This document shows positions 1 through 55,066 of a stretch of 64,000 bases of DNA, in pieces. A model generated the notes under the pieces. The model ran no database searches. It was not told where the DNA came from and was given only the letters and a program-made list of their open reading frames with translations. This stretch comes from Ectocarpus siliculosus (Eukaryota > Sar > Phaeophyceae > Ectocarpales > Ectocarpaceae), in the NCBI GenBank assembly GCA_000310025.1, contig FN648512.1, positions 103,095 through 167,094 of the forward strand, in the 5' to 3' direction. The position numbers and the translations under genes were made by a program. Each line of letters starts with the position of its first letter. The stretch's first letter is position 1.

Positions 1-1498
1 AAGGATTTATGCTGCCCGGGGGCAAGTGCCCGCGCCGTATTTCGTGTCTGGCTGCCTTCGCTCTGACTGAAGATGCGTCCCCGAACTTGGCTCTCTTGAT
101 GGTGTTTTACCCAAACGATATCATCCTTCCTGACCCTGCCTTTTTTATGTTGCGGTGGTAAACAGTTGGAGGGGCTGCGCCTGGAGAGATTCGAAAGCAG
201 ATCGCGCCCACATGGACTAAAACCAAGGCGGGGGTTTGACCAAGAGGAGTCTTCTTTTTTGTCATTGACGGTATGGCCGCCTTCTCTGCGACAACTTGAG
301 TTTGGGGATGGGTTCACCGTGCGGATCGCCACGCTCAAATGTCCGCCCTCCCTACAACAGCTTTCGATTGGGCATTGGTGCGACGAGCATATTGCCAGGG
401 TCAGTTGGACGATGTCTCTGCAGCAGGCATCATTCAGTGGAAACTTCGATCAGACCATCGCCGAAGTCATGTGGCCGGCCTCCCTGCAGCAGCTTTCGTT
501 CGGGGAAAGGTTCAATCAGCCCATCGCCAAAGTCGTATGGCCAGCGTCCCTGCAGAAACTTTCGTTTGGAGACTCGTTCAACTGGCCCATCGCCGGAGTC
601 GTGTGGCCGGTCTCCCTGGAGCAGCTTTCTTTCGGAGATTGGTTCAACCAGCCCATCGCCGGTGTCGTATGGCCGGCCTCACTTCGGCAGCTCTCGTTTG
701 GGAATAGGTTCAACGAGCCTATCGCCCTAGTAGTGTGGCCGGTCTATCTGCAGGAGCTTTCGTTCGGAGATTCTTTCAATGAGCGCATCGCCGAAGTCTT
801 GTGGCCGGCCTCATTAAGGTAGCTGTCGCTCGGCCGGTGTTTTGACCAGCCTATTTCGGGGGTCATGTGGCCGACCTCCTTGCAGCAGCTTTCCTTTGGC
901 TGGTCGTTTCGACAGTCCATCGTTGGAGTAGTTTGGCCAGCCTCACTGCGGCAGCTATCGTTCGGGTTCTACTTCGACCAACCTCTCGCCGAAGTCGAAT
1001 GGCCGGCCTCCCTTCGGCAACTTTCGTTCGGTTTGTGTTTCGACCAGCCCATCGCCACAGTCGTATGGCCGGCCTCCCTGCAGCAGCTGTCGTTCGGAGA
1101 TAGATTCAACCAGCCCATCGCCGAAGTCGTATGGCCAGCTTCCCTGCAGCAGCTTTCGTTCGGGGATCAGTTCGAATACCCTCTCGCTGAAGTCGTATGG
1201 CCGGCCTCCCTGCAACGCCTGTCGTTTGGGGACGACTTCAACCAGCCCATCGCTGAAGTTTTATGGTCGGCTTCCTTGCGGCAGCTTTCGTTCGGGGATT
1301 GGTTCGACTACCCTATCGTCGTCGTCCCTGCAACGCCTGTCGTTTCGAAACGACTTTAACCAGCCCATCACCAGTGTGGTGTGGCCAAGCTCCTTGCGGC
1401 AGCTTTCGTTTGGGAAACGGTTTTCCCAGCGTACAGATGGAGTCGTGTGGCCGGTCTCCCTTCAAACAGTGACGCGAATAGGGGTTTCTCTGCTGTAA
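1..1498 (+). pseudogene. FNIP-repeat protein copy A, broken and cut by the window edge
   Basis: The frame from about position 166 encodes 22-residue units of the form WPxSLxxLSFGxxFNxPIxxV, the pattern of the FNIP leucine-rich repeat family (solenoid proteins, usually thought to bind partners). It is nearly identical to copy B at 3816-5303 on the other strand. Three lesions are visible. An in-frame TAG ends the frame at 820-822, where B has a Gln codon. A 14-base deletion near 1315-1335 shifts the frame, so the repeats resume in another frame (seen from about 1340) and end at 1498 with the same GVSLL tail as B. The N-terminal region of B (the segment with RIDDQTP) is not found upstream, where 1-165 looks unrelated. 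Copy A also has one repeat unit (about 733-798) that B lacks. The two lesions make a pseudogene likely, though splicing around them cannot be excluded. Confidence 0.7.
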
Positions 1499-3489: not shown

Positions 3490-4975
3490 TCTGAGATGAT
3501 GAGGGAAGTCGTTCTCCTTCTTGAAAAGCCAGGATGCTCAGAAGTAAAATTTGTATCATCGAGAATACTCCCTCCCTCTCAGCCCAGATGTATCCCCCCC
3601 CCCCTCGACAAAAATTGCACCCGTCAAGCTTTTGCATTCCTATTCAAGCGCTTTCGATGAGACACTCGAGGCGCAGGTGCAACGGTATCTTGGGGAACCT
3701 TCGTGTGGTTCCTCATGGTCAGGGACAATGCGTTCGATCTCTAGCTATTCCCTGTCACCACGTTTTTCAATAATAGCGACCCCACTCTCGAGAAAAAACA
3801 ACGATACTTGTGCGACTACAACAGAGAAACCCCAATACGCGTCACCGTTTGAAGGGAGACCGGCCACATGACTTCATCTGTACGCTGGGAAAACCGTTTC
3901 CCAAACGAAAGCTGCCGCAAGGAGCTTGGCCACACCACACTGGTGATGGGCTGGTTGAAGTCGTCCCCAAACGACAGGCGTTGCAAAGAAGATGGCCATA
4001 CTACTTCTGTAATAGGATAGTCGAACCAATCCCCGAACGAAAGCTGCTGCAAGGAAGCCGGCCATACGACTTCGGCGATGGGCTGATGGAATCTATCTCC
4101 GAACGACAGCTGCTGCAGGGAGGCCGGCCATACGACTGTGGCGATGGGCTGGTTGAAACACAAACCGAACGAAAGTTGCCGAAGGGAGGCCGGCCATTCG
4201 ACTTCGGCGATAGGTTGGTCGAAGTAGAACCCGAACGATAGCTGCCGCAGTGAGGCTGGCCACACTACTCCAACGATGGACTGTCGAAACGACCAGCCAA
4301 AGGAAAGCTGCTGCAAGGAGGTCGGCCACATGACCCCCGAAATAGGCTGGTCAAAACACCGGCCGAGCGACAGCTGCCTTAATGAGGCCGGCCACACTAC
4401 TAGGGCGATAGGCTCGTTGAACCTATTCCCAAACGAGAGCTGCCGAAGTGAGGCCGGCCATACGACACCGGCGATGGGCTGGTTGAACCAATCTCCGAAA
4501 GAAAGCTGCTCCAGGGAGACCGGCCACACGATTCCGGTGATGGGCCAGTTGAACGAGTCTCCAAACGAAAGTTTCTGCAGGGACGCTGGCCATACGACTT
4601 TGGCGATGGATTGATTGAACCTTTCCCCGAACGAAAGCTGCTGCAGGGAGGCCGGCCACATGACTTCGGTGATGGGCTGATCGAAGTTTCCACTGAATGA
4701 TACCTGCTGCAGAGACATCGGCCAACCGACCCTGGCAATATGCTCGTCGCACCAATGCCCAATCGAAAGCTGTTGTAGGGAGGGCGGACATTTGAGCGTG
4801 GCGATCCGCACGGTGAACCCATCCCCAAACTCAAGTTGTCGCAGAGAAGGCGGCCATACCATCGATGACAAAAAAGAAGACTCCTCTTGGTCAAACACCA
4901 GCCTTGGCTTTGGCCGACGTGGGCGCGATCCGCTCTTGAACCTCTCCAGACGCAGTACTTCCAAATGCTTCCACT
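3490..4975 (-). repeat. Right arm of the A/B inverted repeat
   Basis: Reverse-complement partner of 166-1830. It contains the FNIP units of copy B and about 330 bases of 3' flank. Similarity is high in the flank as well as in the coding part, with small indels in a C-rich tract near 3594-3606. This points to a recent duplication of a segment rather than selection on the protein alone. Confidence 0.75.
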
Positions 4976-5303
4976 GCCTATCGCCTGCATTTAGAACAAA
5001 ATCATTCATCTGGCCATAAACCCACGTCAAACGGAGCGCCAACACGACCGGCACACGGCTCGAGATGCAAACCTCAGGATCCCACAAGCTGTGCGGCGTC
5101 TGATCATCGATACGCACGTGCCAGGTCGGGACACTTCGGCACGCGGAGCAAAACGCCAAGCACACACATTGCAGCTGCAGGGTAGACTTGTACCAGTGCC
5201 CCCCCCTCCCGCCGTAAGCTTGGTGCAAGGTGATGGCGAAGGCGTCAAGAAACCGAGACCCGCCTGAACTTCGTCGACGAACCAGACGGAAAAGCGTGGA
5301 CAA
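3816..5303 (-). CDS. FNIP-repeat (leucine-rich) protein copy B, longest intact frame
   Basis: A continuous minus-strand frame of about 495 codons. The first third is a non-repeat region containing RIDDQTPHSLWDPE and LRLTWVYGQMNDFVL. It is followed by about 15 units of 22 residues (66 bp each) with WPxSL, LSFG and FNQPI signatures, and a short tail ending GVSLL. The unit pattern fits the FNIP repeat, known from Dictyostelium and other protists and from giant viruses; binding partners are unknown. No ATG opens this frame. A plausible splice acceptor (TTCAG) lies just above 5263, so the start is probably in an upstream exon and the true exon is likely 3816-5263. It is the least damaged of the three copies. 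Whether it is expressed cannot be told. Confidence 0.65.
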   Translation of the reverse strand: MSTLFRLVRRRSSGGSRFLDAFAITLHQAYGGRGGHWYKSTLQLQCVCLAFCSACRSVPTWHVRIDDQTPHSLWDPEVCISSRVPVVLALRLTWVYGQMNDFVLNAGDRQWKHLEVLRLERFKSGSRPRRPKPRLVFDQEESSFLSSMVWPPSLRQLEFGDGFTVRIATLKCPPSLQQLSIGHWCDEHIARVGWPMSLQQVSFSGNFDQPITEVMWPASLQQLSFGERFNQSIAKVVWPASLQKLSFGDSFNWPITGIVWPVSLEQLSFGDWFNQPIAGVVWPASLRQLSFGNRFNEPIALVVWPASLRQLSLGRCFDQPISGVMWPTSLQQLSFGWSFRQSIVGVVWPASLRQLSFGFYFDQPIAEVEWPASLRQLSFGLCFNQPIATVVWPASLQQLSFGDRFHQPIAEVVWPASLQQLSFGDWFDYPITEVVWPSSLQRLSFGDDFNQPITSVVWPSSLRQLSFGKRFSQRTDEVMWPVSLQTVTRIGVSLL

Positions 5304-6069
5304 AACGAAAGTAGTATAACAACGGTTTAAAGGAGACCGGTTCCTTCACCAGACGAAATACTGCCTCAAACGTTACAACACCACCTCATCCCATGGAGCT
5401 TGCCCAAATCAGATGTGAATTCACGTTGCCCCAAGAGCAAGCAAAAGCACTACCACGCCAGGCAACGAAATGCAAAAAGGAGGCAAAAAACATGCAGCCA
5501 TGTCGTGGTACGACAAAGCCTCGTCCCGAACTCTACAATGCTAGCCAGTCCTGCATATGGTGCTGGAGAAGAAGCACAAAGCTTGGATCTACGCAAGCGC
5601 AGTTCCACCATGCTCGGGTCAAACGTTGAGGCGCTCCTCGTTGACTCATTCCCGTTCATTTACAACGTAAGCTCGATGTGCGTAACGAATGTTGACCAGG
5701 ACAATGATGTACAATAAAAGCGTGCAATCTCCTGCACCACAGCGTGTCTCAGGTGTACAACAGCTTCCTAAATATTACTATTTAGAAGTAGTCACAACTC
5801 GAAGGAAGTAAAGAGGTTCTGAATCTTGCAGGAAGGCTACTTTTTGAGCATACATGCCAAAAGATTGAGGATCTATGTCGTTTTCCTGAGGGTTCGTTTT
5901 CCTGAGAGAGTGGTGGCTAACCACAAGGTATACACGAAACTGTGGACGTACTCTACATCAGGGTGGGAGAGCGACAACCATGTCCAGCAGAGACAATTGC
6001 TTGCTGATCGACACAAGAGAGGGGCAATACACCCACTACGCAGCAACGTGGGCGTGAGAAAGGACATCG
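5304..6069 (-). pseudogene. Degenerate upstream exons of the B gene region
   Basis: Read on the minus strand, parts of this stretch match plus-strand sequence upstream of copy C (about 12680-13550). The clearest match is 5935-6075 to 12690-12870, including an exact 17-base inverted match (5992-6008 to 12770-12786). The shared frame contains ANDVL, AHVAA and VSISKQLSLL. In the left copy it is interrupted by a TAG at 6038-6036, where the right copy has Trp. A second patch around 5630-5700 shares a GNEST motif with the right copy. I do not recognise the protein family. Confidence 0.4.
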
Positions 6070-12870: not shown

Positions 12871-13878
12871 ACCGTGGCTGATGCCGATCTATCTCTTACT
12901 CTCACTCTCACTTTCTCGTAGGTCGCGAACTTTCGAAATATTCCTTCTTCGGCTCTCTCTTTCTCCAATCACGCGCCCCCACCCCAAGTGCGCCCCCACC
13001 CCATAGGAGGGCGATGAAGCTGCAGGAAGGCAATCAAAATATTGTCAATTGTTTGGTATGCTCAACCCAGTCACGCTGGAAGGGTCAGATTATTTTTTGC
13101 TTCCTTCTTCGTGACCGACAAGAAACGGTTCGAAAACCTTGTGGTACACATCCCCCGAGACGCCTTACGATGCATTCAGCAGAACTGTTGGAAGGCTGTT
13201 GCACATCATACTCCTGGTGCAGAGTCGTTGTACACATCGATGCTTGAGTTGTAGATGATCGGGAACGAGTCAACGACGAACGTCGACGATACCTATGGAT
13301 TTCTTCTAGCTGTAGGTATTCAAGCTCTATTGTTCTTCTCAAGGATACCAACGACAAGCAGGATCCGATAGCGTGGAATGCGGAACGGCACTTCCTTGTT
13401 CCGCTGCATGACTCACCTTTGCATGCCATTGCTGAGCGTGGTGGTGTTGTTTTTCTAGTGATGCGACATGGAATCACCTCTGGCCTGGGCGGGCTCCAGC
13501 CATTCATCGGTTTGTTGTTTTCGGGTGCCCCGAGATATCGTTTCTCCCCCATTGTTCGATCGTTTGTCGGGCCTGTGAGCACTTACATCCGTGAGACTTC
13601 CTTAAGATTTTTACGTTTTCGTTCTGAGGTTGGCTGTGCTCTTCCAGTGAAACCGTGTTACACTCTAGTTGTGTGCACCGTTGAGCTTGGGAAATGTCGC
13701 AACTGGTAGATGCCAGCCAGCTGTGCGGCTGACCCTGCTGCTTGCATATGTCTTCATCTTGTGCGACCCCTTGAAACTACGCTCTATCAAATCCTCTCCG
13801 GAGGGATCCCGTGTAGTTGTTTGAACTTGCGTCTTGTTTCACCGCCTTCGCTGCGCGTTTCGCCGATGAATTTCAGGC
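12871..13878 (+). pseudogene. Coding-like patches between the palindrome exons and copy C
   Basis: Two protein-like patches are visible on the plus strand. One, near 13095-13250, contains FFVTDKKRFENLVVHIPRD. The other, near 13330-13560, contains LLKDTNDKQDPIAWNAERH, then HFLVPLHDSPLHAIAERGG and GVVFLVMRHGITSGLGG. They lie in different frames with a stop between them near 13246. Both patches have weaker inverted matches at about 5390-5700. The most likely reading is eroded exons of the gene that ends in the FNIP repeats of copy C. Confidence 0.3.
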
Positions 13879-15241
13879 GTGTCTCTGTGTCTTGACGCTA
13901 TCGCCATCGCCTTGAACCAAGCTTACCGAGGGGAGGGGGAGTACTGGTACAAATCCTCGCTGCAGCTTCAACTTGCGTGCTTGGCGTTCTGCGGCGCATG
14001 CCAAAGTGTCCCGGCCTGGCACTTGCGTATCGATGATCAGACGCCGGAAAGCTTGTGGGATCCGAACGTTCGCATCTCGAGCCGTGTGCCGGCCGTGTTG
14101 GCGCTCCGTTTGACTTGGGTGTACGGCCGGATGAATGATTTTGTTCTGGATGCAGGCGATAGGCAGTGGAAGTGTTTAGAGGTGCTGCGTCTGGACAGGT
14201 TCAAGAGCAGATCGTGCCCAGATCGACCGAAGCCAAGGCCGGTGTTTGACCAAGAGGAGTCTTCTTTTTTGTCATCGACGGTATGGCCGCCTTCTCTGCG
14301 ACAACTTGAGTTTGGGGATGGGTTCACCGTACGGATCGCCGTGTTCAAATGTCCGCCCTCCCTGCAACAGCTTCCGATTGGGCATTGGTGCGACGAGCGT
14401 ATTGCCTGTCCCGGTTGGCCGATGTCGTCGCAGAAGATATCATTCAGTGGACTCTTCGATCAGCCCATCACCCGGGTCGTATGGCCAACCTCGTTGCGGG
14501 AGCTTTCCTTTGGGAATTTGTTCGGACAACCCATCGTCGAAGTGGTATGGCCATCTTCCCTTCAGCGCCTATCTTTCGGGCGCAGATTTGACCAACCTAT
14601 CGCCGAAGTCGCATGGCCGGCATCTCTCCAGCACCTTCCGTTCGGTTTGTGTTTCAACGAGGACATTGCCAGCGTCGCTTGCCTGCCTGCCTTGGAGCAG
14701 CTTTCGTTCGGAGATTGGCTCAACCGGCCCATTGCCGATGTCGTATGGCCGGCCGCCCTGCAGCACCTTTCGTTCGGGCAAAGGTTCAATCAGCCCATCA
14801 CCGGGGTCGTGTGGCCAGCTTCCCTGCAGGAGCTTTCATTCGGAGATTCATTCGACTACCCTTTCGCCGAGGTCGTGTGGCCGGCTGCCTTGCAGAAGCT
14901 GTCGTTCGGGAATTGGTTCAACTGGCCCATTACCGATGTCGTACGGCCGGCCTCACTTCGGCAGCTTTCCTTCGGGAAACTCTTTAACCGGCCCATTGCC
15001 GGAGTCGTATGGCCGGCTTCCCTGCAGCAGCTTTCGTTCGGGGACTCATTCAACCAACCCATCAGCAGCGTGGAGTGGCCATCTTCCCTCCAACACCTTT
15101 CGCTCGGGGATGGGTTCAACTGGCCTATTGCTGGAGTCGTTAAAGCAGCTGTCGTTCGGGAAATGTTTTTCCCAGCGCAAGGCGGAGTGGCAGGCGTTTC
15201 TTCGAAGGGTGATGCGTAGGGGAATTTCTCCGTTACAGTAG
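13879..15241 (+). pseudogene. FNIP-repeat protein copy C, frameshifted at its 3' end
   Basis: The frame to 15219 has the same plan as copy B: a non-repeat region with RIDDQTPESLWDP, then about 13 FNIP-type units of 22 residues. It is clearly more diverged from B than A is. A 14-base deletion near 15140 removes part of a unit junction. The original frame therefore continues in another phase, with LKQLSFGKCFSQRKAEW and a tail ending at 15241. A likely splice acceptor (TTTCAG) lies at about 13878, equivalent to the one in copy B, so the first coding exon is probably upstream. It may still be expressed with a different C-terminus; I call it a pseudogene because of the frameshift. Confidence 0.6.
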
Positions 15242-35292: not shown

Positions 35293-38200
35293 TTATTGCC
35301 CATGCTCCAGCTGGTTCTGGGTGGCAATGGTGTCAGGGTGGCTGCTCCCGAGAGCCTTCATGCGGATTGAGAAGGCCCTCTCCAAGAGAGGAACTGCTTG
35401 ATCGCGCTTCCCCTGTGAATGTACGACACATTTTGCACGGCGCGGAGACACCGCACATTCTCGGTAAGACTGCAACACAGACAAGGCGGGCAACACAGCA
35501 CGAAGAGTCCGTCTCGTCCTACGCATCCTGTCAACCACCCCCGGCGCTGCTGAAGCGTTAAGCGCGACAGCTAGAACCGGAACAACAACAATACAAACGA
35601 CGGAAGAACTCGAAACGATTGTCCAGCAAACCGGTTGCCTCGCACCTGTTTCACCATCAAGCCCGCCCGGCTGTGCAGTGTGGTCGCCACGTTGGAATGC
35701 TCAGGGCCAAGAACCTTCTCCTTCATTGCTTGACACCGATCGTACAGCGCCTCAGCCTCAGCGAGCTTGCCCTGAAATGTACGCGACAGCGCAGCAGAGT
35801 CGCACCGTCGGTCGTTTCAATTCAAATGGGAAGACCGAACGCCACCGGGGAGCATTGGCTTCGGAACTACCACGACCAGGAACTCAACCGTCAACCAACA
35901 ACCACGCGTCCAGGGCGCACCCCTAGTCCGCCCAACATCAACACCTCCACCGTACCAACGGTCCACCTCGTCTTAGGCGCCCTGTCAAGCAAGCAACGCG
36001 CCACGGTAACTAGAACCGGAACAACTACAACGACATATAACAACACAAATCACGGCAGAACTCGAAGCGATTGTCCAAGAAACCGGATGTCTCGCACCTG
36101 TTCCACCATCAAGCCCGCCCGGCCGTGCAGTGTGGTCGCCACGCTGGGATGCTCAGGGCCGAGAACCTTCTCCTTCATTGCTTGGCACCGATCATACAGC
36201 GCCTCAGCCTCAGCGAGCTTGCCCTGAAATGTACGCCACAGCGCACCAGAGTCGCACCGTCGGTGGTGTCACTTCGAATCACAAGGCCGAACGCCACCGG
36301 GGAGAAATGACTTCGGAATTACCACGACCAGTAACTCAACCGCCAACCAACAACCACGCGCCCAGGGCGCACCCCTAGTCCGCCCAACATCAACACCTCC
36401 ACCGTACCAACGGTCCACCTTGTCTCACGCGCCCTGTCAAGCAAGCGGCGGGCCTCGGCAAGTCTAACCGGAACAACTACAACGACACAAAAACAACACA
36501 AACCACGGCACAACTCGAAACGATTGTCCAACAACCAGATGCCTCGCACCTGTTCCACCATCAAGCCCGCCCGGTTGTGTAGTGTGGTCGCCACGCTGGG
36601 ATGCTCAGGGCCGAGAACCTTCTCCTCGATTGCTTGACACCGATCATACAGCGCCTCAGCCTCAGCGAGCTTGCCCTGAAATGTACGCCACAGCGCACCA
36701 GAGTCGCACCGTCGGTGGTGTCACTTCGAATCACAAGGCCGAACGCCACCGGGGAGAAATGGCTTCGGACATACCACGACCAGAAACTCAACCGTCAACC
36801 AACAACGACGCGCCCAGGGCGCACCCCGAGTCCGCCCAACATCAACACCTCCACCGTACCAACGGTCCGCCTCGTCTCACGCGCCCTGTCAAGCAAGCGG
36901 CGGGCCTCGGCAAGTCTAACCGGAACAACTACAACGACACAAAAACAACACAAACCACGGCACAACTCGAAAAGATTGCCCAACAACCAGATGCCTCGCA
37001 CCTGTTCCACCATCAAGCCCGCCCGGTTGTGCAGTGTGGTCGCCACGCTGGGATGCTCAGGGCCGAGAACCTTCTCCTCGATTGCTTGGCACCGATCATA
37101 CAGCGCCTCAGCCTCAGCGAGCTTGCCCTGAAATGTACGTCACAGCGCACCAGAGTCGCACGGTCGGTGGTGTCACTTCGAATCACAAGGCCGAACGCCA
37201 CCGGGGAGAAATGACTTCGGAATTACCACGACCAGTATCTCAACCGTCAACCAACAACCACGCGCCCAGGGCGCACCCCTAGTCCGCCCAACATCAACAC
37301 CTCCACCGTACCAACGGTCCACCGCGTCTCACGCGCCCTGTCAAGCAAGGAACGGGCCGCGGCAACTCCAACCGGAACAACTACAACGACGAAAAACCGA
37401 CACAAACGACGGCACAACTCGAAACGATTGTCCAGCAAACCGGAATGCCTTGCACCTGTTCCACCATCAAGCCCGCCCGGTTGTGCAGTGTGGTCGCCAC
37501 GCTGGGATGCTCAGGGCCGAGAACCTTCTCCTTCATTGCTTGACACCGATCATACAGCGCCTCAGCCTCAGCGAGCTTGCCCTGAAATGTACGCCACAGC
37601 GCAGCAGAGTCGCACCGTCGGTCGTGTCACTTCGAATCACAAGGCCGAACGCCACCGGGGAGAAATGACTTCGGAATTACCACGACCAGTAACTCAACCG
37701 CCAACCAACAACCACGCGCCCAGGGCGCACCCCTAGTCCGCCCAACATCAACACCTCCACCGTACCAACGGTCCACCTCGTCTCACGCGCCCTGTCAAGC
37801 AAGGAACGGGCCGCGGCAACTACAACCGGAACAACTAGTACGACACAAAACCACACAAACCACGGCACAACTCAAAACAATTGTCCAGCGAACCGGATGC
37901 CTCGCACCTGTTGCTCCAATAAGCCCGCCCGGTTGTGCAGTGTGGTCGCCACGCTGGGATGCTCAGGGCCGAGAACCTTCTCCTCGATTGCTTGGCACCG
38001 ATCATACAGCGCCTCAGCCTCAGCGAGCTTGCCCTGAAATGTACGCCACAGCGCAGCAGAGTCGCACCGTCGGTCGTGTCACTTCGAATCACAAGACCGA
38101 ACGCCACCGGGGAGAAATGACTTCGGAATTACCACGACCAGGAACTCAACCGCCAACCAACAACCACGCGCCCAGGGCGCACCCCTAGTCCGCCCAACAT

Positions 38201-41200
38201 CAACACCTCCACCGTACCAACGGTCCACCTCGTCTCACGCGCCCTGTCAAGCAAAGAACGGGCCTCGGCAACTAGAACCGGCACAACTACAAGTACAACG
38301 ACAAAAAATCAACACAAAACCACGGCACAACTTGAAACGATTGTCCAGCAAACCGGATGCCTGGCACCTGTTGCTCCAATAAGCACGCCCGGTTGTGCAG
38401 TGTGGTCGCCACGCTGGGGTGCTCAGGGCCGAGAACCTTCTCCTCGATTGCTTGGCACCGATCATACAGCGCCTCAGCCTCAGCGAGCTTGCCCTGAAAT
38501 GTACGCCACAGCGCAGCAGAGTCGCACCGTCGGTCGTGTCACTTCGAATCACAAGACCGAACGCCACCGGGGAGAAATGGCTTCGGAAATACCACCACCA
38601 GTATCTCAACCGTCAACCAACAACCACGCGCCCAGGGCGCACCCCTAGTCCGCCCAAGATCAAGACCTCCACCGTACCAACGGTCCACCTCGTCTTAGGC
38701 GCCCTGTCAAGCAAAGAACGGGCCTCGGCAACTAGAACCGGCACAACTACAAGTACAACGACAAAAAATCAACACAAACCACGGAACAACTTGAAACGAT
38801 TGTCCAGCAAACCGGATGCCTGGCACCTGTTGCTCCAATAAGCACGCCCGGTTGTGCAGTGTGGTCGCCACGCTGGGATGCTCAGGGCCGAGAACCTTCT
38901 CGTCGATTGCTTGGCACCGATCATACAGCGCCTCAGCCTCAGCGAGCTTGCCCTGAAATGTACGCCACAGCGCAGCAGAGTCGCACCGTCGGTTGTGTCA
39001 CTTCGAATCACAAGGCCGAACGCCACCGGGGAGAAATGACTTCGGAATTACCACGACCAGTAACTCAACCGCCAACCAACAACCACGCGCCCAGGGCGCA
39101 TCCCTAGTCCGCCCAATATCAACACCTCCACCGTACCAACGGTCCACCTCGTCTCACGCGCCCTGTCCAGCAAGGAACGGGCCGCGGCAACTCCAACCGG
39201 AACAACTAGTACGACACTAAGTCACACAAACCACGGCACAACTCGAAACGATTGTCCAGCGAACCGGGTGCCTCGCACCTGTTCCACCATCAAGCCCGCC
39301 CGGCTGTGCAGTGTGGCCGCCACGCTGGGATGCTCAGGGCCGAGAACCTTCTCCTCGATTGCTTGACACCGATCATACAGCGCCTCAGCCTCAGCGAGCT
39401 TGCCCTGAAATGTACGCCACATCGCAGCAGAGTCGCACCGTCGGTCGTGTCACTTCGAATCACAAGACCGAACGCCACCGGGGAGAAATGACTTCGGACA
39501 TACCACGACCAGAAACTCAACCGCCAACCAACAACCACGCGCCCAGGGCGCACCCCTAGTCCGCCCAACATCAACACCTCCACCGTACCAACGGTCCGCC
39601 TCGTCTTATGCAACCTGTCAAGCAAGCAACGGGCCGCGGCAACTCCAACCGGAACAACTACAACGACACAAAAACCGACACAAACCACGGCAGAACTCGA
39701 AACGATTGTCCAAAAACCCCGATGCCTCGCACCTGTTCCACCATCAAGCCCGCCCGGCCGTGCAGTGTGGTCGCCACGCTGGGATGCTCAGGGTCGAGAA
39801 CCTTCTCCTCGATTGCTTGGCACCGATCATACAGCGCCTCAGCCTCAGCGAGCTTGCCCTGAAATGTACGCCACAGCGCAGCAGAGTCGCACCGTCGATC
39901 GTGTCACTTCGAATCACAAGGCCGAACGCCACCGGGGAGAAATGACTTCGGAATTACCACGACCAGTAACTCAACCGTCAACCAACATCCACGCGCCCAG
40001 GGCGCACCCCCAGTCCGCCCAACATCAACACCTCCACCGTACCAACGGTCCGCCTCGTCTTAGGCGCCCTGTCAAGCAAGCAACGGGCCTCGGCAACTCC
40101 AACCGGAACAACTACAACGACACATAACAACACAAACCACGGCAGAACTCCAAGCGATTGTCCAACAAACCGGATGCCTCGCACCTGTTTCACCATCAAG
40201 CCCGCCCGGCCGTGCAGTGTGGTCGCCACGCTGGGATGCTCAGGGCCGAGAGCCTCCTCGTTGATTGCTTGACACCGATCATACAGCTCCTCAGCCTCAG
40301 CGAACTTGCCCTGTATTGTTAACCGGAGCAGCAGAGCCGCAGAGTAGGTCGCCTAGGTTTGAAGGGGGAAGAAAGACCGCCAGCGGGGAACTCTCCACTC
40401 GGGGATCGACTTCGGTTGCATTCTCAAGGTGGCGAACACAGCCCCGTACATTTTACCCAATATATATAGACCCCGCCAAAACTCGATTCCGCGATTGCTG
40501 TCTGAAATATTCCTCAGAAATCGAACGACGTGCCATCACATATCTTGCACATCTGATTATTGGCAACGATATACATTCCGCTGATCGCCCACCTGGAGTT
40601 CGAACAACCTCCCTACAGCCCAGGTCAGATAGGCAACATCTTCTGACGCTTCACTTTCTTCCGAAGGCTTCACCGTGGCTCCATACGTGCTTGCCTCCAG
40701 CTGATTGTCTCCAGACAGGTCTTCGACCGACCGCCACAAAGCCATCAGCGCATAAAACCCTCCCATCACCTCGCCAGCCTTGGCGTAGTCCTTGACCACG
40801 GACATTCGGCCAAGGTACTGTGCTTGGCGACAAGTGACGAGCCGCACCCTTTCCTTCAACTTCCGGAGCTCATCTTTCGCAAAATCAAGCACCAGGTCGT
40901 GTAGGTAGTAGGCGTGCTCTTCGACTTTCACGAGGGACTTGTCCACCAGGTCGTCCAGTAAAAGCGTTGAATCGTCATGGTCCTAGGCACACCGACGAAC
41001 CACGCAAGACAAGCAGTGAGTCTCACAAGTGGCGAATACAGACACTTCCCTGATATGCATATGAGGATCGAAAAACCCCATTCCCCCGTACACTTACCAG
41101 TTCCCACAGATGAGCGACCATGTCGACCGGGGCCCTTGCCCCCTTCGCCAGCACACCAAGCTTACGGAACCGCGTTCTAGCCGCCCCCTTGAGCCCACAG

Positions 41201-44069
41201 AAGCTGACGGCAAGAACACTTCCTACAGGATCTTGCACAAGTTCTGGCTCTTGCTGGAGTAGCGCGTGAATGCCCCTCCAAGTCTCGGCGGAGTCCGGGT
41301 CTGCTCGCGAGCTACCCATAGCACCGACGATGGCAAGGGGAAGGGGAAGAAAGCCGCAGTCCTTGGCCACCTGCGCGGGACATCCGGTTGACGTGATGCA
41401 GAAAACGATCAAAAGTCCAAAACAAATGGTAGTTCTTGCAATTACCTCCGAAGCACCGAGTGCCGTTTACAAACTCGCCCACCGAAGCATGTGCCTGTCT
41501 TGCACGAAGTTGAGACTTCTCCACAGCGCAGTCTGCGACGAGTGTCTAGTGAAGGCGCACAAGGTGGTACACGGATAGACATGTATGCAGCTGTACAACG
41601 CGCTGAGACTCACGTTTATGGTATCAAAATCTTGGAAATACATCTTCGATTGTTGTCAAACATTTGCGCGCGAATATCTGCCAGAGGAACATTTGAGTAT
41701 CGCATTCTGCGCAAAAATATATTTTCTTGTGGTTTCCTCGGAATGCATCAGAAGTGCGGCGGGAATCGTGGTCTTCTGCTACCAAACGATTTGTGACATA
41801 CAAACCAAAAATGCGTCATGGAAACTGAATGTAACGAGCTCGCACAGGGCTCCCGACAGCCCTTGATGCACTGAGCTGATGCTGTGCCCGCCAATACGTG
41901 GCGATAGCGCTTCGGGCGTGCGAGAAAAAATATTTCCGGTGTCAAAAGAGACCAAAACGTACGTCAGCGCTTCCCAACGGCAAAACGTTGGCCGCTTGAG
42001 AGGAGACGTGAGTACAAAACTATCCAGCTCTCGCCCGTTAGACGATCGATTCATGTTTTGTCTTCTTGGGGTGTCTTCTCCATCAACGACTCTCATCCGG
42101 TTGCGGGTGGGTTGGAAGTGGTCGTGCTCAGTCGGCAGGGAGGCACATCGTTGCGCGCACAAAGTTGTGGACACAACATTATTTACGGCCTATTTCTTCA
42201 CTTGAATTTAGAGGGCTTGTTCTTCCGTCCCAAAAAAGACTTTTTCAACACAACGAGTTCACAGCGACGCGTCTCCCCGCCTATTGAGTACGTCCACTGC
42301 TGAACCACGCACACACGGATGATAGCCGTTGATGAAGAAGACACCCAAGAAGACGAAACATGAATCGATGGTCTAGAGGACGAGAGCTGGATAGTTTTGT
42401 ACTCACGTCTCCTCTCAAGCAGCCGACCTTTTCCCGTTCAGAGACACAAACCACGTTTTCTCCGTGGCCTTCAAACCACCCCTGCCTGTTTGTTTTTTAG
42501 TGTACGCTTGACGAGCTCCCGCCATGTATCAGCCGGCAAAACGTTGACACGGCGACTCTAGGGTTGTCTGGATCCCTCTATGAGCTTGCTACACTAAGTG
42601 TGCGCTGCGGAGTGGTTGGTGTTGAGGACGGAAGGGGCGGTCGGCTACTAATCTCGCCGCTCTTGGAAAAGATGTTCGCGACCTGCCCCATTTCGAAATG
42701 TTTGTCGAACATTTTGTCGAACGAGCGACTTTTGCCGCATTCGAAAATCGTTGGAAAGGTTGCGGAAGATTTTGTCCCATAGGAAGTGAAACAAAACCTT
42801 GTTCGGCATATCTTCAAAATTTCCACATTTTCGCAAAGATTTGGCGACCATAAACATGGGTCTGAGCGAGAGTAAACAATCTCGACGGCAACTTCCCACC
42901 TTCAGGCCCTCGTTCGTCGGAATGGCGGCAGTTGCTCGACTTGCGTTCTTCAAGAGCTCCAAAGCCTCGGCATTGGTGAGCATCTCGACCTCCGTACATA
43001 CTCCCTGCAGGTCTCGGGGAATCACCGCAAGGTCGCGTGTAGTCACCAAGGAATGGAACCCTCCGCACAGAAACAACGGGACGATCTGTGCGTCCCACAC
43101 ATCATCAAGTACCACCAGGCACCTTAGGTTGCGCTCCTTCCGAACGCCCTCAAGGTGGCTTACGGCATGTTCGACGTCCACGAACTCGTGCGGGACCGTA
43201 TGTGGCTGGTGACTCGGAGCGTGCGCAAGGTCCCGCGCCAAGCCTTGTAGCAGGGCCATCGGGTTGCCCGTGCCAACCTGCCCCACTTGCACCCAGAATA
43301 TTCCGTCCTTGAAACTCCGGCGAACGTCCTCGCAGCGCACGACTGCTTTGGCTGCGATGGTCTTGCCCCCCCCGGGCATACCACGGAGCACATGGGCCGC
43401 ATTCGTCGCTCGATCCGTCGCCACCAAGTCCTTCACAACAGCTTTGAATAGGTCCCTCCTCTCCACAAACGCCGGCGGCAGTTGTTTGGCGTTCTTGGGT
43501 ACTCTGGCCATGTAGGCCGTTTTGGGGGGGAGCGTAGCGCGAAAGTCAGAATAAAACGCTAGGAGAGTCACCCCTTGGATGTCGTCCCAAATGTGGCGGA
43601 GCTTCACGTCGAAGTCTTGCACTTGTTTCCCGTCCCTCCGATGGCAGAGGAGTGCGGTGCATTTTCCTCTTGCCCCCATGGCTTTGGCACGCTTCGCGAG
43701 CTCGATCGTCGTGGCGACAAAATCCTTCATGGGCTTTGCGATCGGCCGCAGATTGTCCTCCTGCTTGCCGTGCTCGATGAACACACCCACGAGGAACGAG
43801 CACCAAGAAACCAGCTCCTCTAGGTTCTTAGCTACCTCGATGGCGCCTTCTGCAGCCTCGATCAGCGATGTAAAGGCCTTGCAGACGGGCGTGAGAGGGC
43901 CCACACTCGCCATGTCCAGCAGGCCAACGGTGGCCGATGCCATCCACTCCAATGCCTCTCCGACAGCCTCCGGGCAGTTGTTCCACTCATACCGGGCCTG
44001 CAGTCCTGCCTGAACAAACGCAGGCCATGGCTTCCTACTGGCGAGAAGCCGTTCGACCTCTTGAAGCAT
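35293..44069 (-). CDS. NB-ARC-TPR (STAND-class) receptor-like protein, 15 exons
   Basis: A signalling NTPase of the plant-R-protein/APAF type joined to kinesin-light-chain-like TPRs. Exons: 44069-42900, 41370-41098, 40982-40593, eleven TPR exons of 126 nt between 40310 and 35646, and a last exon 35412-35293; about 1112 aa, all introns phase 0. An in-frame TAG lies just upstream of the ATG. Exon 1 has the P-loop GMPGGGKT (230-237), kinase-2 LVVLDDVW (318-325) and LVTTRD. Exon 2 opens with a GLPL-type motif, CGFLPLPLAIVG. Exon 3 has an MHD-like YYLHDLVLDFA. The C-terminus is twelve TPRs, the last reading LLERAFSIR and HPDTIATQNQL before the stop. In Ectocarpus this class was proposed as pathogen receptors that change by exon shuffling (Zambounis and colleagues, 2012). 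A receptor role here is inference. Confidence 0.85.
35646..40310 (-). repeat. Tandem array of eleven single-exon TPR units
   Basis: Exons, in gene order: 40310-40185, 39858-39733, 39404-39279, 38952-38827, 38493-38368, 38033-37908, 37581-37456, 37127-37002, 36675-36550, 36223-36098, 35771-35646. Each is exactly 126 nt (42 residues), starts GKLAEAEALYDRCQA (GKFAEAEELYDRCQA in the first) and ends before a GTGCGAGG or similar donor. Start-to-start spacings are 452, 454, 452, 459, 460, 452, 454, 452, 452 and 452 bp. The introns between them are about as similar to one another as the exons, so the repeating unit is exon plus intron. Confidence 0.93.
41830..42585. mobile_element. Foldback element inside NB-ARC intron 1
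   Basis: Inverted arms flank a centre near 42207. The best block is an exact 33-base match, 42001-42033 against 42381-42413. Weaker similarity extends outward to about 41830 and 42585. No transposase frame is visible, so a non-autonomous foldback or MITE-type insertion is the simplest reading. It lies wholly within the 1.5 kb intron between exons 1 and 2 of the NB-ARC gene. Confidence 0.6.
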
Positions 44070-51278: not shown

Positions 51279-54200
51279 ATGGCGTCCAATGTCTTCCCCG
51301 GCGGCAACTCCTCGTGGGGAAGCAAACACCTCCCGCTCAGTCCTGCAGCACTGGTTGGTGCGCCAGAGTCAACGCCACCTCAAGTCTCTAACGAAGGCTC
51401 CGAGAGTGGCGCGAAAAGTGGGCGGAGCATTGCGCCGAACGCTCCTGGCACAACGGCAGCAGCCGCGGCGGTCGGGAACAATCGCCATGGACAGCACCCC
51501 CTGTATCTCCAACCCCTCAACCCCTTTCATCCCCTGGCTGGGGCTGGCGCCGGTTTGCTGCATGGGAAGAGCGGCGATGACGGTCGTGGCGTTGGAGATG
51601 TGGGGCTCAAGCACCCTGATGCCTTGAAGATGATATTGCTTGAGGCGGAGATCACCAACGCGCGATCGCATAATTTGCACCTCCACCATCACGTGGCTTT
51701 CTTGGAGACTCAGATGAGCGGCCAGCTGGGCCTCATCGCCGTTCTGCACAACAAGATCAGGGCCTTAGAGGCCGACCTGAAGTCAGCCAAAGCAGCTACT
51801 ATTGCGGTTGGGGCGACGCCAAATACCTCCAATCCAACAGCAACTTCCTGCGACTCGGCCGACGCATGCCCACCTCAGCCGTCAAACCCGGTACCAGCGG
51901 AGGAGCTTGTTCAGCATCGGGCGGCGCGTCCTGATCCCGAAAAAGAAGGCACCGCTGGGAAGTACGCCTTGTGTGATCTCCGCCCGCACGACGGTTACCG
52001 AGCAACAGCTGCGGAATCGGATAGGCATGGAGGGAGCGACGTGGCGGCACCAGTGAGCGCTGAAGTGGCGCAGAGAACCGTGGCAGCGCCTCTTACGTTG
52101 TCCCCGCAGAACGAAGAAGATTCTGCTGTAGAAAGTTTCCCACGTGCGGCTGAAGCGAAGCTAGCCCCTTCTGCGGACCCTCCGGCGCCAGGATCTCCTT
52201 CCTCGGCACTTGCTGCAGCCGCCGTCCATCAAGCCGAGAGTGTGGGTGGCGAAAACGATGGTTCTATTGCCGCGGCCCCAACAACGCCACGACATTCGTT
52301 GAGGGATTTCTGGGCCGACAGCGGCAGCAACGACATCGACAACTCTCCCCCGTCCAGCAACACGAGGAACAAACGCCACCAAGGTGAGCCTCCACCGCTC
52401 GTGGCAGGATGGAACCCAACTCGATACCGCCAGATTGCACCCTGTGCATGACGCCGCTTGAACCATCCGTTGCCGTGCTGTTGTGTTCAAGTTTTAAGAT
52501 CCATCCTATGCCAGAACCGTCTAGTATTCGTACTGGCCCAACTGACGCGCACGTCTGCCGTGGTCGCAGGCTGACCACCTTTCATCGGGTTACGCAAAAT
52601 CAAGGAGGCGTGAAGAACCCAAACCAAGTCTTCATTCGCAATGGTTACGCTGGTGTGCGGATTCCGCAATATCTATATTGCCCGTTCTTGTTTTCGCGGA
52701 ACGTGATGGACCAACGCACATTTCCACGCTTGTCTGCCACGGCGTACGTAGTTGCATATCTTGGACCGGCCTGGTACACGCAGGTTGTTCATTTCCTGGA
52801 ACACAGAGTCCCGTCCCAACCTTATCGTGACAATGCTCCCGTTTGGACTAAAGGAGGGTGTTTGTTACTAGAGACCAAACGCTGCTGCTCACGGGCGGAT
52901 GTTTCGTGGATTCCCTTCTTCGGAAAGTCGTGTTGTTGGTTACTATGAGTTCCGGGCACCAATCCGAAAATAATTTCATGAGCCCCCGGTGTTGTTTCAG
53001 TGTTTCGAGCTTCTACAGTGTTCGATTGTCTCGGCGTATTTCGGCCCACATGTATCGTGGCGTGGACAAGACGTTCGGCGTTGGGGTCCATAGTTTTTCG
53101 AAGTTCCAATGCGAGGCCGTTTTATTTTCTGTGCACGTGTCTCCTTCGTGAAGGCATATGCCTTTTATTTTTTCATTTAGTAAATCTCGGGCTTCTTCGC
53201 ACTTTATACTCCATCCTCCGGGTTGCAGCTGTGGACATAACTTGTTGCGTTGGCGTTGGCTGCCGCGCCCTTAAACTACCTCGCTGGACTGTATTATCCC
53301 AAGAAGCGGTGTTTGACGGGGGGCGGTGGACGTCGGAGGCAGGAAAACACCATTTCGCAAACCTTCCCGTCCTGACTCGTTTGTCTGTGTGCTGTGCTGG
53401 ATTGTTGCCGCTTGTCCCAACAGCAGCGCAGCAGGAGAAGCAGGAAGCACCTTTGCCATTAGCCCTGCAGGACGGGAAACCATCTGAGCCCTTGCAAACA
53501 GCAGCGGTCGACACGGATGTAACGCCTGCCTCGCAAGAGGGGAAAAGTTCTCCTACTGGAAACAGTGGCCCAGCCGCGGCTGAGTCCCTATCCCCGGCTG
53601 AGCCGCAGGCAGTGCTTCTGCCGGTACTGCGACAGATCACGGAAGGCAGGGAAGGTGCGGAGGACAGAAGCAGCCACTTGATGGACTGTGCTTCCTGCCA
53701 GCACAGTTTGCCGGAGGGTGATCCGATCGGTCGGTGCGAGCGATGCCCGCGCAGCTTTTGCTCGCAGTGCCTGGAGCGCGGCCTGGTTGAGCAAGGCGTG
53801 GAGCTAGAGGCGTTGGGCCAGGATTGTCGCAGTCTGCTGAATGGTAAGCAAGGCGACATTTCCATCGCCCGGTGCCCGGAGTGCTTTCGCGGCAAAGATA
53901 ACGAGTTCGCTCCACCACCGCCGGGAGGCGCGCCGATGGACCACCTCCTGAGCGAGCTGCTTCGGCACGACCTGTCGCTCTGCTTCCGTGAGCCCGTTGA
54001 CATAGTCAAGCACCCGGACTACGTGGAATCGATCGGGCGTAACGCCATGATGGACCTGGGAACAATGCTAAGCAAGCTCCAGGGCAAGAGATACCCTCGG
54101 CGTCGGGGCCCCGGGCAGTTTCAGGAGGATCTGAACAGGATCTGGAGAAACTGCCGCAGGTTCGCTGGGTGCGACGAGCTCGGGCGGCCACACTACGGCA

Positions 54201-55066
54201 ATACCGTGCCGGGCATAGTGCGATGCGCCCTCACCTTGGAGGCCATGTCCGACAAGTTCATCTCTTCGTACATGTCCGACAACCAAGAGACTGCAGCGTG
54301 GCAGGTAAACATGCCCGTCTATTTCATTCGCAGTGTTTAAGTCGTCTTCTGGCCTGGGGCACAGAAGTCAATCAATACTGTACCCCCGCCTCCCAACCCC
54401 AATAGTGCTTTGACGGGCTTAATCCGGGTTTTGTGAATCGCTGTTTGTTCCCGACCTATGTTGGACGCTCTTTTCGGGGCACCTAGGCCTGATTGCCGAT
54501 ATCGCTCGTTTTCCTCTTCCCCCCCCCGCCACACCCTGCAGGAGTCTACGTGGGATTTCCACCGGCAAAGGCAAGAACGGGAAAACGCGGAAGCCAGGCG
54601 CAAGCAGCTCGGGCATCCGGACGTTGATGGTGGCAAAGAGGAGCTGAAGCCACTCGCCCCTGGCGGTGGCGACATGCGGCTCGTTGCAGCTGTCCAACAT
54701 AATTCCAGTGAAACCGACTCGGAACAGAAGTGCAACATGCAAGAAAAAGAAAGCCTGGCAGGCGAAAGCGCGGGACGTGCGTCAACGGCGGCTTCGCAGC
54801 AGTCAGCGAACGAGATCGTCGCTTCAGTAGGTTGTAAAAGAAGCGCATCGAAGTTGGCAGCGGTGGCAGAAGAAGGAAGCGTACAGCACCGGCGATCCCG
54901 AAGAGCTGCAAGCATTTCTTTGGAATCTACTGCCACGAGTCTCGGGGGGGGGGATCCCCCTACGCCAAGAGTCACGCGCCGTCCAGCGGGCAAAATGCAA
55001 CGTCATCAACCGCCTTGGAGCCCCCTCGATAAGTTGTGCGATCTAGCAACCGCGTTCCAGAAATAG
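51279..55066 (+). CDS. PHD-like zinc finger plus bromodomain protein, 3 exons
   Basis: Nuclear chromatin reader; bromodomains bind acetyl-lysine. Exons: 51279-52383, 53424-54304, 54542-55066 (about 836 aa; phases 1 and 0). Exon 1 starts MASNVFPGG just after a possible acceptor, is Ala/Pro-rich, and holds a coiled-coil-like stretch (LKMILLEAEITNARSHNLHL). Exon 2 has a zinc finger from about residue 457 with CASC, CERC, FCSQC and CPEC. The bromodomain follows at about 545-655, with LSLCFREPVDIVKHPDYV, MDLGTMLSKLQ and an Asn-containing helix (FQEDLNRIWRNCRRFAG). Exon 3 is charged, with KRSASKL and a basic segment before the stop. The fifth zinc ligand is Cys, not the His of a classical PHD finger. 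Placing exon 1 in this gene rests on a fitting phase-1 junction, and an extra 5' exon is possible. Confidence 0.85.

Follow-up and report, generated by a model that had tools for sequence, protein, structure and literature searches.

The NB-ARC-TPR gene studied here carries an array of TPR exons that, on our reading, grew locally, while five sister arrays elsewhere in the Ectocarpus siliculosus genome (A-E) exchanged pieces with joins around a core lying inside the exon; we give this joint reading a probability of about 0.72. The gene lies in a window of 64,000 nucleotides (contig FN648512.1, positions 103,095 to 167,094), where it occupies positions 44069-35293 of the minus strand and looks complete, with AG/GT splice borders throughout. 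Its exon lengths (1170, 273, 390, eleven times 126, and 120 nt) are each a multiple of three, so that every intron is in phase 0, and they sum to a protein of about 1112 residues. The features of the locus are as follows:

44069-42900, minus strand: exon 1, 1170 nt; N-terminal helical domain (residues ~1-200) and start of NB-ARC, with P-loop GMPGGGKT; donor GTGGGA
41976-42438, no strand assigned: MITE-like inverted repeat in intron 1; 95-nt arms, 91% complementary, plus inner arms
41370-41098, minus strand: exon 2, 273 nt; NB-ARC continued (GFLPLPLAIVG); acceptor GCGCAG, donor GTAAGT
40982-40593, minus strand: exon 3, 390 nt; winged-helix-like end of NB-ARC (YLHDLVLDF) and linker
40310-35646, minus strand: TPR exon array, eleven exons of 126 nt; introns between them of 326-334 nt, spacing 452-460 bp
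40310, 39858, 39404, 38952, 38493, 38033, 37581, 37127, 36675, 36223, 35771, minus strand: starts of the TPR exons, each AG-126 nt-GT
35645-35413, minus strand: last intron, 233 nt; 61-64% identity to the other ten
35412-35293, minus strand: last exon, 120 nt; divergent TPR-like end and stop (HMM E 2e-7)

The domain content agrees with this gene model. The NB-ARC domain matches PF00931 at residues 209-377 (54 bits, cut-off 23.5), and the C-terminal repeats match TPR_12 with 168 bits, scored on three units joined with the last exon, as well as TPR_10. Exon 3 scores 18.7 bits against APAF-1-like_WHD from Pfam, under the cut-off of 27, and a search with 41370-41023 alone returned no Pfam match; the end of exon 2 was placed by hand count on the sequence. 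Because the methionine at 44069 is directly preceded by AG, an upstream exon is possible. The preliminary description of this DNA had proposed that each TPR is one exon of exactly 126 nt between phase-0 introns, which holds for 11 of 11 exons, and that the NB-ARC part is likewise split at phase 0 only, which the three NB-ARC exons confirm. Its assignment of the locus to the brown-algal NB-ARC-TPR type is borne out by PF00931, the one-TPR-per-exon layout and the phase-0 exons. Exon 1 has 34 genome matches including itself, many of them to the NB-ARC part only, and five others match at 44-46% over nearly the whole exon. We conclude that the window gene is a further member of the known NB-ARC-TPR family, with a homogenised array private to its locus. 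The same window holds a local cluster of another repeat-protein family, with FNIP-repeat open frames at 100-819 (plus strand), 3819-5345 (minus strand) and 13870-15216 (plus strand), each with 4-6 stretches scoring 128-196 bits, and a bromodomain in the open frame 52982-54337 (plus strand).

From its domains, the protein is predicted to fold into a helical N-terminus, an NB-ARC switch and a TPR superhelix built from eleven nearly identical repeats of 42 residues. It is likely an NLR-like receptor that would bind a ligand on the TPR coil, switch by nucleotide in the NB-ARC domain and signal from the N-terminal bundle, and an immune role may follow from this layout. No Pfam family was convincing for the N-terminal domain, and a structure model of exon 1 from the single sequence was unusable (pLDDT 34.6). 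A profile built from 8 sequences found MLKL, a four-helix bundle, in all six top places of a PDB search, at weak scores (E 0.015-0.034), and an N-terminal four-helix bundle was reportedly described for the brown-algal family by Teng in 2023. According to the accessible sections of PMC10197012, bundles of the MLKL type make membranes permeable during cell death, and HeLo relatives of them occur in fungal NLRs.

How did the array of the window gene arise? Tandem-repeat analysis (TRF) describes a single array at 35587-40313 with a period of 452, 10.4 copies and 93% matches, and the repeating piece of 452 bp is an exon plus an intron. Mean identity among the units is 94.2% for the exons and 92.2% for introns 1-10, and this high identity of exons and introns alike points to local duplication and homogenisation. 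Since the units were copied from one ancestor, 126 nt eleven times over is not eleven independent observations. The most divergent TPR exons include the first and the last ones. Indels occur in the introns and in none of the eleven exons, which are also free of stops. Replacements are most frequent at residues 16-17, 34 and 39-41, and pN/pS is 1.02 (pN 0.058, pS 0.057), a value that fits diversification plus constraint or, equally, relaxed selection. By eye, 53 informative columns reveal a mosaic in which units 4-6 have a common exon end while units 4/5 and 3/6 have common intron variants; these columns hold too few events to place joins within the window array.

The preliminary description had called these exons interchangeable and shuffled. 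One part of this claim stands, because gain or loss of a 126-nt phase-0 unit would preserve the frame. The other part, an exon trade with other genes at this locus, does not: when a single 452-bp unit was compared with the genome (30 matches, best candidates only), full-length matches came from its own array alone. Among the matches listed, exons elsewhere reach at most 82% (81.6% over at least 100 bp for the best), the match extends into no more than about 33 nt of the neighbouring intron, and no unit is shared between the window gene and another locus. The sequence is most simply read as the product of local events, unequal crossing over and/or conversion, which account for it better than an exchange with other genes: the array would grow in place as they act on the 452-bp exon-plus-intron unit, and would stand apart from other arrays.

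We fetched 41 genome stretches for comparison, four of which contain runs of N. The genome has many TPR units of this kind (592 candidates, 150 of them scored), and the AG-126 nt-GT phase-0 form was found in 209 of 232 strong full-length units from the first 31 loci and the window, whose 11 are included (TPR matches with E <1e-6 covering HMM positions 4-38). The fixed 126-nt TPR exon pattern thus exceeds chance. Such symmetric exons of fixed length at so many loci are what classical exon shuffling would produce, in which recombination within introns moves whole 126-nt exons between or within genes. We consider this explanation unlikely, because the unit of the window is private to its own array among the matches listed and because, where arrays have highly similar pieces in common, linkage is best in the introns and poorest in the last third of the exon, which disfavours it for A-E. 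Strong full-length units deviating from the AG-126 nt-GT form were counted at L001 (5/21), L002 (5/14), L003 (4/13) and L007 (1/5); several of these have no donor at the usual place, which, judged from the sequence, should break or truncate the frame unless the exon is skipped. At a further locus, L022 (C16:824900-827000), TPR-like matches lie on both strands of 2.1 kb (6 and 8), most of them ending early at HMM positions 23-37.

The sister arrays lie on three contigs:

A, C2:8.304 Mb
B, C2:8.810 Mb
C, C2:8.84 Mb
D, C6:3.467 Mb
E, C10:2.56 Mb

Exon 1 is open in A, B and C; D may be a pseudogene, as its NB-ARC matches fall in two pieces. Highly similar pieces recur in all five arrays, with identities of up to 100% (over 264 bp), and their order differs from array to array. 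Inspection of the raw units revealed identical exon bodies with different tails and introns, and the reverse, the switch lying inside the exon at a short core; a common piece therefore spans the 3' end of one exon, the intron and the 5' part of the next exon. One such segment of 289 bp runs core to core, from exon position 92 to 116. When the six arrays A-E plus F were cut from core to core, 90 cassettes were obtained, of which the 85 of at most 700 nt fell into 39 clusters (linkage at 88% identity or more; the 5 longer ones were left unclustered and scored as 'gap'). Fourteen multi-copy types cover 60 of the 85 clustered cassettes, and one type, c3, has 7 copies at 3 loci with 6 different right neighbours. 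Tandem short cassettes of ~85 nt are also present. In A-E we did not find the whole exon as the shuffled unit with intronic joins: the flanks lose their linkage within the final third of the exon, around the core, and keep it across introns. As the common pieces join inside the exon and not in introns, we conclude that the exon is not the shuffled unit in A-E. A different kind of array was seen at L011 (C27:3070300-3077200), where exons of two types take turns and the pattern repeats every two exons, at 709-746 bp; a near-identical partner in the same locus exists for 91% of its units, and in another locus for none.

The join site was probed by five tests, which use overlapping data and are not independent of one another, the core and A-E having been chosen after viewing the raw units. 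The cut-point scan and the test by adjusted mutual information (AMI) of left and right flanks do not presuppose the core, because both scan all positions; array F was excluded from these two and from the test for crossovers within the core. In the cut-point scan of 63 A-E segments, near-identical partners were found for 19 (11 pairs) when the cut was made at -30, the minimum, and for 38-39 (59-62 pairs) when it was made at exon position 78-120, the maximum; at 95% identity the values were 10 versus up to 34. The AMI between flanks in A-E was 0.83 at -40, 0.68 at 0, 0.14 at the core (93) and 0.82 at +140. It was also low, 0.15-0.26, over exon positions 70-110, and both this zone (~70-110) and the plateau of the cut-point scan (78-136) are broader than the 24-bp core. 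At the 66 cores of A-E whose spacer is 8 nt long, 15 left and 25 right flank types occur in 46 combinations. Within the core, no crossover site could be placed firmly: a side is seen at one variable position, 16 (p 0.0025), out of 15, and 9 positions are invariant.

Linkage between flanks was measured by a bridge test on 60 units of L001, L002, L003, L007 and L020 (1770 pairs). Pairs with both flanks alike numbered 24 across the core against 16.5 expected, 136 across the exon start against 33.5, and 118 in the intron against 13.3. In a wider set of 17 core-bearing loci with 140 units (E up to 1e-5, covering HMM positions 6-30), linkage across the core was 43 against 18.1, a value reached by 0 of 300 permutations, and in the remaining arrays it was strong (54 against 3.9). 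Since the 17-locus value is above chance, the near-equilibrium across the core is specific to the five loci. The lowest ratio of observed to expected in the wider set lies at position 67 (1.20) and not at the core; the right flank there is the conserved core itself. Segment matches among L001, L002, L003 and L007 (at least 93% and 60 bp) begin at exon position 92-120 in 71 of 165 cases and end there in 56 of 165. Many borders fall downstream of the exon, mostly in introns (102/165 ends and 65/165 starts), a point in favour of exon shuffling; only some of these were seen at intronic half-cores. For this count 165 of 170 borders were placed per side, those at the edge of a locus or ahead of its first unit being left out.

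The core is a 24-bp inverted repeat inside the exon, CTCAACAAC-8 nt-GTTGTTG, coding LNNRAGLL. It is absent from the window array. In A-E its codons 32-39 are nearly frozen at silent sites, with codon entropies of 0.12-0.70 (L32 0.24, A36 0.39, G37 0.20, L38 0.21, L39 0.24), against 1.18-2.25 for L, A and G codons elsewhere in the exon (L9 2.11, L21 2.25, A15 1.87, G1 1.68). Frozen codons occur outside the core too (E18 0.12, Q42 0.00), and arrays other than A-E are less frozen at most core codons. The core could be a dedicated signal, an inverted repeat with an 8-nt spacer that a putative enzyme cuts or pairs, or a hairpin-prone break site, acting in germline or soma. Such a signal would agree with the 9-nt arms, which are perfect in some of the copies (8/14 units of L002, 6/13 of L003, 4/21 of L001), with a DNA hairpin of -11.1 kcal/mol (z -6.1; the window equivalent has -1.9, z +1.0), and with the occurrence of the core, at one mismatch or fewer, at 145 genome places against 0 for a reversed-pattern control. 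All 29 fetched loci that hold the core also contain TPR units, a count biased by the choice of loci by TPR or core, and intronic core copies take part as well. However, the motif also encodes conserved TPR residues, and its quality did not correlate significantly with sharing between loci across 32 arrays (rho 0.27, p 0.13). Good cores at L024 and L031 go without sharing, and L020 shares with a poor mean core (0.68), which counts against a decisive role of the core altogether: it is not enough for sharing, nor is it clearly needed. We regard a dedicated signal as quite improbable. No more credence goes to its fullest form, in which each TPR exon of an active array carries the core as its own recombination signal, programmed breakage or pairing there, in germline or soma, brings cassettes of different loci into new combinations, and loss of the signal, as in the window, leaves a clonal array outside the pool.

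Homology would be enough. When A-E exons of different type are compared in register (2412 pairs), the core holds the longest exact run in 61% of the pairs; runs of at least 18 nt are found in 16.7% of these pairs and runs of 24 nt in 10%. Between window and A-E exons, none of 876 pairs has an in-register exact run of 18 nt or more (the longest is 17 nt), and between the window and other arrays 0.4% of 2430 pairs do. These run lengths suggest that short-homology recombination accounts both for the joins in A-E and for the isolation of the window array. As judged from sequence, ordinary recombination of this kind would suffice to explain the joins at the A-E core, where it would act through short shared homology, possibly aided by the core hairpin. 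The core copies in introns have either exon tails or intron ends joined to them; together with the exons lacking a donor, this suggests that the recombination is blind to gene function and that selection in the germline would sort its products.

Two further explanations for the joins are very improbable in our view. The core-to-core piece might be a transposon-like mobile cassette bounded by short terminal inverted repeats, and the 8-nt spacer a duplicated target site. Cassettes do start with GTTGTTG, finish with CTCAACAAC and often have the 8-nt spacer (66 cores in A-E), and the short ones stand in tandem, but the spacer is largely one coding sequence throughout, and when about two short cassettes were searched, most of the 56 matches fell on stretches that had been fetched as TPR arrays. 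One match, C2:8805043-8805098 (84%, 56 bases), lies in L034, which holds no TPR unit that passes the filter, at ~5 kb from array B. Alternatively, the joins could be assembler chimeras formed at 24-bp repeats, given that they sit at the longest shared words and that the sequences are gapped. Against this, A-E lie within sequences of 3.9 to 9.3 Mb, the cassette copies are diverged and joined in many ways, and the 30-nt flanks of the four N runs are without a core.

One TPR per exon is a feature of brown-algal NB-ARC-TPR genes. Their architecture was reportedly described by Zambounis in 2012 and by Teng in 2023, and the literature on the family is said to describe intron-based exon shuffling. 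Lamprey variable lymphocyte receptors are assembled from repeat cassettes through short shared sequence inside the coding repeat, in a somatic and deaminase-linked process. The A-E arrays resemble them in joining cassettes inside a coding repeat; they are known here from one assembly, with nothing somatic seen. In its accessible sections, PMC11378527 presents the brown-algal NB-ARC-TPR genes as candidate immune receptors with TPR exon shuffling. The window gene has the NB-ARC plus TPR layout of this family with one TPR per exon, but differs from the family as described in that its array is homogenised and private to its locus. The same sections describe the brown-algal LRR-ROCO genes, which are alike in having one repeat per symmetric exon of fixed length in a diversified array and differ in having LRRs, 72-bp phase-2 exons and ROC-COR in place of NB-ARC; alternative splicing of their LRR exons is reported there too, and the paper prefers alternative splicing as the simpler source of diversity (PMC11378527). 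Our COR search for this comparison gave one match. The Tetrahymena LRR genes with 90-bp exons, to judge from the accessible sections of PMC6564038, are similar arrays of symmetric exons of fixed length, for which unequal crossing over between or within genes was proposed; they differ in phase (2), in repeat type (LRR), in evidence at the level of whole exons and in a retrotransposon proposed as helper. The titles and abstract openings surveyed on the NB-ARC-TPR family and recombination contain no mention of exon-internal joins, nor do the accessible sections of PMC11378527, PMC6564038 and PMC10197012. What is new to us, and open to test, is the exon-internal join site in the sister arrays.

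The building of receptors by recombination in brown algae has been an open proposal since 2012, and now that the join positions are located it becomes testable. Fixed-length phase-0 exons alone are no proof of intron-mediated exon shuffling: in the sister arrays recombination appears to cut through the exon, sometimes giving exons without the usual splice donor.
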